Source: Proteiniborus sp. MB09-C3
GTDB taxonomy: Bacteria; Bacillota; Clostridia; Tissierellales; Proteiniboraceae
Assembly: GCF_030263895.1 (NCBI RefSeq)
Contig: NZ_CP127161.1
Span: 3,410,001-3,474,000, forward strand
Direction of reading: 5' to 3'
Length of the DNA stretch: 64,000 nucleotides
Shown here: positions 17,817 through 33,496 of the stretch, in pieces
Layout: each line of letters opens with the position of its first letter
Numbering within the stretch: position 1 is the first letter of the stretch
Notes under the pieces: generated by a model
The model's database searches: none
The model's input: the letters and a program-made list of their open reading frames with translations, nothing else
What the model was told of the DNA's origin: nothing
Program-made: the position numbers and the translations under genes

Positions 17817-17825
17817 TAGGATTTG

Positions 17826-17857
17826 GGCAGATGAAGCTATTAAAAACTTCATCTGCC
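17826..17857 (-). promoter_or_regulatory. Stem-loop between small ORF 3 and tldD
   Basis: A perfect 11-bp stem (17826-17836 with 17847-17857) with a 10-base loop and no T-run after it on the minus strand. It probably protects or processes the message, or lowers read-through from the peptide genes into tldD. Confidence 0.5.
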
Positions 17858-17870
17858 TATATTAAACTTG

Positions 17871-17966
17871 TCAGGTATTGTCGATAAAATCAAGCTCATG
17901 ACTTTCTAATAATCCTATATTTAATTCATCCCTGAAACTCCTTGATAAGGATAATAACTTATTCAT
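17871..17966 (-). CDS. Small ORF 3 upstream of tldD (31 aa)
   Basis: This is a 31-codon ORF with ATG at 17966 and a full AGGAGGT site eight bases upstream. The product starts MNKLLSLSRSF and ends with an acidic tail (ESHELDFIDNT). It has no cysteine and does not clearly resemble small ORFs 1 and 2, but it shares their spacing, strand and leader design (an A-rich spacer and AGGAGGT before each ATG). It is the closest of the set to tldD. It may be a peptide precursor, an accessory peptide or a coupling ORF; function is unknown. Confidence 0.5.
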   Translation of the reverse strand: MNKLLSLSRSFRDELNIGLLESHELDFIDNT

Positions 17967-18005: not shown

Positions 18006-18116
18006 TTAATACCCGCAACGCTTGCTAAATCCAAGCTTTACATACTCATCAAAATTAGTATATTTCATAAGCTGAGGGAAAAACCAATATTCTGTTAATA
18101 AGCTAATCTTAAACAT
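18006..18116 (-). CDS. Small ORF 2 upstream of tldD (36 aa, Cys near C-terminus)
   Basis: A 36-codon ORF with ATG at 18116 and AGGAGGT upstream. It begins MFKISLLTEYWFFPQ, continues with KYTNFDEYVKLGF and ends SKRCGY. It is clearly related to small ORF 1: both share a leucine-rich start, FFP, KYT, an aromatic residue, an acidic residue, EY, a basic residue with Leu, and a cysteine near the end. The duplication and conserved spacing argue for a translated peptide family rather than chance. No known peptide family is recognised. Confidence 0.62.
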   Translation of the reverse strand: MFKISLLTEYWFFPQLMKYTNFDEYVKLGFSKRCGY

Positions 18117-18166: not shown

Positions 18167-18262
18167 CTAACACTTTCTAAGCTCAAGCCTTGCATATTCC
18201 TCATAACCAGTATACTTCTTACGCTTGGGGAAAAACAATGATTCTAATAGCAAACTCATCAT
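18167..18262 (-). CDS. Small ORF 1 upstream of tldD (31 aa, C-terminal Cys)
   Basis: A 31-codon ORF with ATG at 18262 (a second ATG follows directly) and an AAGGAGGTGAT site that matches the 16S tail almost fully. It begins MMSLLLESLFFPK, has KYTGYEEYARL and ends in a terminal cysteine. The paralogue is small ORF 2, about 50 bases downstream. The hydrophobic start, basic-aromatic middle and terminal cysteine would suit a signal or modified peptide, but no modification enzyme is adjacent. The nearby TldD/TldE protease is a possible maturation enzyme. Confidence 0.62.
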   Translation of the reverse strand: MMSLLLESLFFPKRKKYTGYEEYARLELRKC

Positions 18263-18333: not shown

Positions 18334-18356
18334 AACCGCAGTAATAACCTACGGCT
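18334..18356 (-). terminator. Leader hairpin 3, terminator-like
   Basis: An 8-bp stem (AGCCGTAG with CTGCGGTT on the minus strand, two wobble pairs) followed by seven T residues. It lies about 70 bases before small ORF 1 and shares its sequence pattern with the two hairpins upstream. Confidence 0.7.
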
Positions 18357-18394
18357 TTTTGTTCTATATTGGAGTGAATTTTTCCAAAATAAAA

Positions 18395-18418
18395 AGTCGT
18401 AGGAAATAGCCTACGACT
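18395..18418 (-). terminator. Leader hairpin 2, terminator-like
   Basis: A perfect 9-bp stem (AGTCGTAGG with CCTACGACT) with a six-base loop and a T-rich tail on the minus strand. Confidence 0.7.
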
Positions 18419-18474
18419 AACTTTAGTTTTTAGTAAAAATATATTTATAATATAATTCACCAAATATATAATAA

Positions 18475-18499
18475 AGTCGCAGACTATATGCCTGCGACT
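18475..18499 (-). promoter_or_regulatory. Leader hairpin 1
   Basis: A perfect 8-bp stem (AGTCGCAG with CTGCGACT) with a nine-base loop and a weak T-rich tail. The stem is nearly identical to that of hairpin 2, which suggests the three hairpins arose by duplication. Confidence 0.6.
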
Positions 18500-18547: not shown

Positions 18548-18622
18548 CTACTTAATGCACAGGCCGTTATTACTATTTCTGTTTTTACTTTTATTAGCTT
18601 TGTTTAAAGTTATCATAATCAT
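18548..18622 (-). CDS. Small leader ORF 0 (24 aa, Asn/Lys-rich)
   Basis: A 24-codon ORF directly after the predicted promoter, with ATG at 18622 and AAGGAGG nine bases upstream. It begins MIMITLNKANK and ends NSNNGLCIK; six of 24 residues are Asn and five are Lys. It precedes three hairpins of terminator type, so it may be a leader peptide whose translation controls read-through, or a further secreted peptide. GGCCGT beside its binding site is complementary to ACGGCC near its end and could occlude initiation. Confidence 0.45.
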   Translation of the reverse strand: MIMITLNKANKSKNRNSNNGLCIK

Positions 18623-18677
18623 CTTTCACGGCCTCCTTTTCTATATTGGTAAACTGTACTAATTGCTCTACTTTTAT

Positions 18678-18706
18678 ATATTAACACCATTTTTTACATA
18701 ATGCAA
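18678..18706 (-). promoter_or_regulatory. Promoter of the small-ORF/tldDE transcript
   Basis: A -35 TTGCAT (18701-18706), a 17-base spacer and a -10 TAATAT (18678-18683) predict a start near 18671, about 50 bases before small ORF 0. Confidence 0.6.
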
Positions 18707-33241: not shown

Positions 33242-33496
33242 AATATCTATCCCCTTTATCATAAACATTTTGAAAACAGAAAAAACTCCTTGCAAAAGAA
33301 GCTTTTTAAGCAGCTATAAAAAGCCACTACATCTACTAGATGACAATGAAATGAAGCTCCTTTCCAAACATGAGAGGCATGAGTATTTCTATTCATACCC
33401 ATAGGCTTATATCCATTGACTCTTATCTTTAGGTTTATAAGCTCGGAATTATTCTTTTTCTAATCTTATTCTAAATCGTCGATATATTTTTGTCAA
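33242..33496 (-). promoter_or_regulatory. hydA promoter and about 220-nt structured leader
   Basis: TTGACA (33491-33496), a 17-base spacer and TAGAAT (33468-33473) predict a start near 33461, leaving a leader of about 220 bases. The leader contains several possible pairings, including an ATGGGTAT/ATACTCAT hairpin, a CATCTAGTAGATG palindrome and a GCTTTTTA/TAAAAAGC hairpin near 33310. No known riboswitch class was recognised. There is no ORF of note inside. Confidence 0.6.

Follow-up and report, generated by a model that had tools for sequence, protein, structure and literature searches.

The three terminator hairpins that lie between a short leader reading frame (ORF 0) and a group of small peptide genes very probably constitute a ribosome-mediated transcription attenuator that would control these genes (pep1–pep3), as judged from sequence comparison. 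The window analyzed here is a 64,000-nt stretch of the genome of Proteiniborus sp. MB09-C3 (NZ_CP127161.1, positions 3,410,001–3,474,000), and all positions below refer to it unless another locus is named. The initial annotation had proposed an attenuator array with ORF 0 as the leader. This proposal is supported by compensatory changes that homologues show in the alternative pairings, and also by the finding of the same leader and tandem-terminator layout in front of BmrCD-type exporters and, in another family, in front of the same peptide genes.

Leader, hairpin array and predicted switch

The unit follows a class IV aminotransferase gene (19604–18726, minus strand), which lies upstream of ORF 0 and the array. 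Its parts are given below; G002 is a genome of the same genus, and the other G numbers denote further genomes.

18678–18706, minus strand: putative extended -10 promoter of the leader, TTGCAT-17-TAATAT with TGT in front, predicted from sequence
18627–18636, minus strand: Shine-Dalgarno (SD) region of ORF 0, GGAGGCCGTG; segment 1, candidate 5' strand of the anti-antiterminator
18548–18622, minus strand: ORF 0, leader peptide MIMITLNKANKSKNRNSNNGLCIK; reading frame kept in G002
18558–18568, minus strand: 3' end of ORF 0, AACGGCCTGTG; switch segment 2, assigned by duplex energies, covariation and rare codons
18499–18475, minus strand: H1, first terminator; 10 bp, loop of 5 nt, tail TTTATTATATA with a weak T-run
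18496–18490, minus strand: 5' arm of H1, CGCAGGC; segment 3, the predicted antiterminator partner
18418–18395, minus strand: H2, second terminator with a homologous stem; 9 bp, loop of 6 nt, tail TTTTTATTTT
About 18360–18330, minus strand: H3, third terminator with a homologous stem; 12 bp including an A/T tract and G-U pairs, loop of 7 nt, T-rich tail
18167–18262, minus strand: pep1, MMSLLLESLFFPKRKKYTGYEEYARLELRKC; first gene behind the array, with relatives in G002, G010, G018, G251 and G360
18006–18116, minus strand: pep2, MFKISLLTEYWFFPQLMKYTNFDEYVKLGFSKRCGY; paralogue of pep1, in a 152-nt tandem repeat
17871–17966, minus strand: pep3, MNKLLSLSRSFRDELNIGLLESHELDFIDNT; its C-terminal DFIDNT is conserved in G002
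17821–17862, minus strand: strong closing hairpin without a U-run; position kept in G002, and a similar hairpin ends the G018 module (L328 2333–2375)

The array was confirmed as first described: between ORF 0 and the peptide genes there are three terminator hairpins whose stems (AGTCGCAGG, AGTCGTAGG and AGCCGTAG) vary a single sequence; intrinsic terminators thus stand behind the leader ORF (18499–18330, minus strand). The H1 stem proved longer than stated, and the loops comprise 5, 6 and 7 nt instead of six to nine. The T-rich tails described for the minus strand were found behind H2 and H3, whereas the U-tract of H1 is weak. The stems of H1 and H2 differ by one compensated change from a C-G to a U-A pair, and H3 carries one further change, from U-A to C-G. 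When folded, the 181-nt segment reached -58 kcal/mol, compared with -28.2 ± 3.6 for shuffled sequences (z = -8.2).

The sequence points to a short leader ORF that has its own promoter and a ribosome-binding site: ORF 0 has an SD and an ATG, its frame is maintained in G002 across a 3-nt indel (MLMRTLNTTNKTENKNNSGLWIIK), and the promoter is kept there as TTGCAA-17-TATTAT. Segment 2 can pair in two ways, by ACGGCC(T) with the SD and by GCCTGTG with the H1 5' arm CGCAGGC. It contains the rare codons GGC (15% of Gly codons) and CTG (6% of Leu codons), which fits selection at the RNA level.

In the proposed mechanism, a ribosome that completes ORF 0 would cover segment 2 while at the stop codon, so that H1 would form and transcription would stop; any read-through past H1 would be caught by H2 and H3. 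An early stall in ORF 0, whether from a ribosome-targeting antibiotic or from another kind of translation stress, would leave segment 1 occupied and segment 2 free. The free segment 2 would then pair with the 5' arm of H1, which would block H1 and let the polymerase continue into the peptide genes. As H2 and H3 share the stem, they may be opened by the same strand or by the strand freed from the previous hairpin, and this is the least certain step.

The view that homologous terminators in a row are unusual was borne out by a scan of 2.464 Mb of the same genome (G000). The scan gave 867 terminator-like hairpins and 50 same-strand pairs within 300 nt, and five pairs had an arm similarity of at least 6.5, as compared with 0.23 expected. 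These five pairs fall in only four places of the sequence scanned, namely the thiD, ABC-F and ABC exporter leaders and the window. Before thiD, three tandem TPP riboswitches are each followed by a homologous terminator (L290 6064–6580, G000:C1:1606064). A leader ORF and two matching terminators, with a stem (GCCTAGG) unlike that of the other arrays, precede a gene of the ABC-F ribosomal-protection-like kind (L234 15529–17797, G000:C1:1295529). At L281, a leader ORF precedes a heterodimeric ABC exporter. The other three matching-arm tandems are attenuator or riboswitch leaders, the TPP case being known and the two leader-ORF cases being assigned by layout and target gene. A covariance model of H1–H3 had no match in the same genome at E < 1e-3 beyond the three hairpins themselves; therefore, the shared stem is not the house style of terminators, and a genome-wide terminator consensus was ruled out as its origin.

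The hairpins could instead simply back up termination after the aminotransferase gene and ORF 0, having arisen by tandem duplication and having no regulatory role. Tandem terminators are, as is generally known, a common arrangement, all three hairpins have one orientation, and the U-tracts of H2 and H3 are good. We nevertheless consider this explanation improbable, since the pairings of the ORF end with H1 and with the SD are conserved with compensatory changes (see below) and the other matching-arm tandems in the 2.46 Mb sit only in leader-type regulatory regions. Moreover, H1 and H2 are nearly letter-identical between the window and G002 (24/25 and 24/24 nt, respectively), whereas the spacer behind H1 is scrambled; in G002, H3 follows directly after H2.

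Homologous loci and alternative pairings

Homologous leaders were searched for with the pattern GGAGGYCGTGN{2,7}ATG, which was built on the SD/ORF-end complementarity of L281 and the window. Including the window, 23 loci share the three-way architecture; 20 lie before BmrCD-type ABC exporters and three before small peptides. The exporter loci are L281 (7484–11726) and 19 further ones across the order (L321–L366), with leader ORFs of 24–42 codons. Most of them have two terminators after the leader, with the stem (A)GCCATAGG. Their exporters were identified by N-terminal sequence, and NCBIfam was applied to the two proteins of L281 only, the best matches being ABC exporter families at scores below the curated cut-offs.

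The three peptide-type loci are the window, G002 and L328 (in G018, of another family), the first two being congeners. The L328 leader has the same SD and carries CACGACCTGCA at the ORF end; it is followed by three terminators of the AGTYGCAG type (stems AGTTGCAGG, AATCGCAG and AGTCGCA) and by the peptides MKELFSIAFRFGWLKTDLGLEEYYKLEFRRY and MNINEFLSLINNPINDTGLNEYKKIEYKK, which are members of the peptide family of the window. Since L328 has the leader, three terminators and the same peptide family, the module of the window also exists outside its genus.

A class-wide pattern search also matched leader-like sequences in other families. The leader had no match in plasmids. Viral carriage was rejected as well: among the matches listed, those on viral contigs were G+C-rich chance matches. 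The leader family is absent from Rfam 15. Its grammar is very simple: GGAGGYCGTG-ATG is followed by ACGRCC close to the stop codon, and the terminators behind it have a complementary arm.

The pairing of the ORF end with the SD, which would act as an anti-antiterminator overlapping the antiterminator, was examined by duplex energies. In the window, the duplex reached -14.1 kcal/mol, and none of 200 shuffles was as good. An unconstrained duplex search recovered the helix in 23/23 leaders (p ≤ 0.015 each versus shuffled ORFs), the SD side being set by the pattern through which the loci had been found. The paired strands are, for example, AGGCCGT and ACGGCCT in the window and GGTCGTG and CACGACC in L281, and the window and G002 share a double change from U-A to C-G. 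The distance between the CGRCC core and the stop codon end is 16–36 nt. The core is in frame 0 at 15 loci, in frame 1 at 3 and in frame 2 at 5, and it is translated, for example, as ARP, HDL or TT. As every reading frame is used, what is under selection is the RNA rather than the peptide.

Segment 2 and the terminator arm differ together between the types of locus: CCTATG and CATAGG in most exporter leaders, GCCTGTG and CGCAGGC in the window, ACCTGCA and TGCAGGT in L328. In an alignment of 21 distinct sequences, in which the core was located by the pattern and the register was picked after inspection, 89.8% of the cells of the antiterminator helix were paired, compared with at most 57% in slid controls. 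Changes on both sides were found in 4 of 7 pairs (reached by 2 of 500 shuffles), and the covariation score was 0.241 versus 0.173 (0 of 500 shuffles as high), although kinship among the sequences inflates such scores. The results showed covariation support for an antiterminator that would exclude the terminator; the compensatory changes appear to back the anti-antiterminator more weakly than this helix.

When partial transcripts up to the H1 loop were folded, the mean of 6.1 SD-helix pairs in the ribosome-free form gave way to 8.0 antiterminator pairs with a ribosome masked at codon 5. The exceptions were the window, G002 and three exporter loci, which already favor the antiterminator at equilibrium in the ribosome-free form. 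Therefore, tight repression in the window and G002 would need translation or kinetics.

The homologous leaders also bear on the Asn/Lys-rich composition of ORF 0. An attenuator of the amino acid type would sense Asn or Lys starvation through the codons of ORF 0, which has 6 Asn and 5 Lys among 24 codons, and the G002 ORF 0 is Asn-rich too. The Asn/Lys content is, however, not conserved: homologous leaders have unrelated compositions (e.g. MLALLLILITISMFGISKQ... and MTTLGMRTFIRKMMVADAIV...), and ORF 0 has no single-codon run, let alone a conserved regulatory one. In addition, Asn codons are frequent throughout the genome, which is AT-rich (AAT 43 per 1000), and the genes downstream are not for amino acid biosynthesis. 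Sensing of these amino acids is thus very unlikely.

Least probable of all is the reading of the hairpins as sites for an antitermination protein (of the BglG/SacY or TRAP/HutP kind), a candidate also raised by the initial annotation, or as a metabolite riboswitch: the loop and stem of H2 are fully conserved in G002, but the loops vary between H1, H2 and H3 and among homologues, the Rfam models (including riboswitches, T-boxes and other leaders) gave no match to the region at the gathering level and chance matches only below it, and the leader ORF with its complementary 3' end explains the switch, so that a binding protein is neither needed nor indicated. Elsewhere in the window, at 33340–33460, there is a Molybdenum/tungsten cofactor riboswitch (Rfam RF01055).

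Within the attenuator reading, it is possible, though doubtful, that the terminators are homologous because antitermination passes along them in a strand-exchange relay, one stall opening every terminator. The ORF end would pair with the 5' arm of H1 and so release the H1 3' arm, which would pair with the 5' arm of H2; the 3' arm of H2, released in turn, would capture the H3 5' arm. Segment 2 resembles the terminator 3' arms. The duplex of the H1 3' arm with the H2 5' arm reached -14.1 kcal/mol in both the window and G002, and that of the H2 3' arm with the H3 5' arm -9.4 (window) and -14.9 (G002); in the H2–H3 segment of G002, the cross-paired form was favored (-26.4 vs -23.4).

Over 18 loci, the pairing of the 3' arm of the first terminator with the 5' arm of the second within a locus amounted to 156/162 cells, compared with 148.3 in permuted loci (p = 0.0002), and in the ABC-type loci only to 131/135 compared with 128.1 (p = 0.011). 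The opposite pairing and plain arm identity also exceeded the permuted loci over all 18 loci (p = 0.007 and p = 0.001, respectively), because there are two stem types, and neither did so in the ABC-type loci (p = 0.57 and p = 0.39, respectively). If the relay is true, it would show how one antitermination event can pass several terminators and why tandem attenuator terminators look alike.

Peptide genes and genomic context

G002 retains the entire unit: the aminotransferase gene, promoter, ORF 0, H1, H2, H3, pep1, pep3 and the closing hairpin without a U-run. There, an acetyltransferase gene comes next, with TldD 5 kb beyond. G001 has the aminotransferase gene (pabC) and TldD but lacks the unit between them. 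TldD/TldE was rejected as the regulated gene, as the G002 cassette precedes other genes and the cassette-free pabC–TldD arrangement of G001 has a similar TldD upstream region. Thus, the cassette is an independent unit and not part of TldD/TldE.

Pep1 and pep2 had no match in Pfam and NCBIfam, and pep2 none in plasmids and phages. They belong to a family of tandem peptides of about 30 aa that end in GxxEYxxLELRK and occur in several genera (the window, L158, L161, L165 and L328). A further family peptide, MNYFHVYNIQKKMVKDIGMNEYLKLEYRK, lies upstream of the G018 leader (L328 1202–1291), and L328 is therefore a larger peptide cluster. In G251 and G360, the peptides are divergent from an HTH-TPR protein of the RRNPP type, and GTTGAATTATAGTTTAC at the promoter is common to G251, G360 and G010. 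RRNPP control of the window peptides was rejected, as G000 lacks an orthologue of the regulator and nothing near the array closely matched the operator.

That the peptides act in signalling or stress is a conjecture. Considering that they adjoin an RRNPP-type HTH-TPR regulator in other genera, translation inhibitors may feed into peptide signalling. In many Tissierellales-like genomes, the leader family is likely to link translation stress to a multidrug exporter; the likewise probable link to tandem small peptides was unexpected.

Comparison with known leaders

The class of mechanism is known from bmrB-bmrCD, vmlR and ermK. The array resembles bmrB-bmrCD of Bacillus subtilis (Reilman et al. 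2014, PMC4191407), which has a leader ORF, an anti-antiterminator, an antiterminator and a terminator, and in which stalling by ribosome-targeting antibiotics is the trigger; the 20 ABC-type relatives precede the same kind of heterodimeric exporter. The window differs by target, which is pep1–pep3, the exporter copy being a separate locus (G000:C1:1427484). The single terminator described for bmrB lies within the 162-nt leader gene (PMC4191407), whereas those of the window lie behind the stop codon and the family has two or three homologous copies. Unlike bmrB, the window leader has 24 codons, and its SD is predicted to be part of the anti-antiterminator.

In the vmlR leader of B. subtilis (PMC9226507), the uORF is likewise embedded in the anti-antiterminator, and stalling frees the antiterminator strand. 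That leader differs in having a tripeptide uORF, one terminator together with a hairpin that sequesters the SD of vmlR, and an ABC-F target. Both bmrCD and vmlR are induced via leader attenuation by ribosome-targeting antibiotics (PMC4191407, PMC9226507), and by analogy we infer that such drugs may induce the window array.

As far as the ermK leader of Bacillus licheniformis is described in PMC4335068 (citing Kwak 1991), it resembles the present array in transcription attenuation and in having a leader peptide followed by adjacent intrinsic terminators, of which ermK has two, and differs in its target, an rRNA methylase. The leader ORF and three mutually exclusive helices are also those of the trp-type 1:2/2:3/3:4 attenuators, unlike which the window has no regulatory codon run and uses the SD region as segment 1. 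As far as the databases searched show, the leader family, the SD-based anti-antiterminator, the homologous terminator array and the peptide targets are new.
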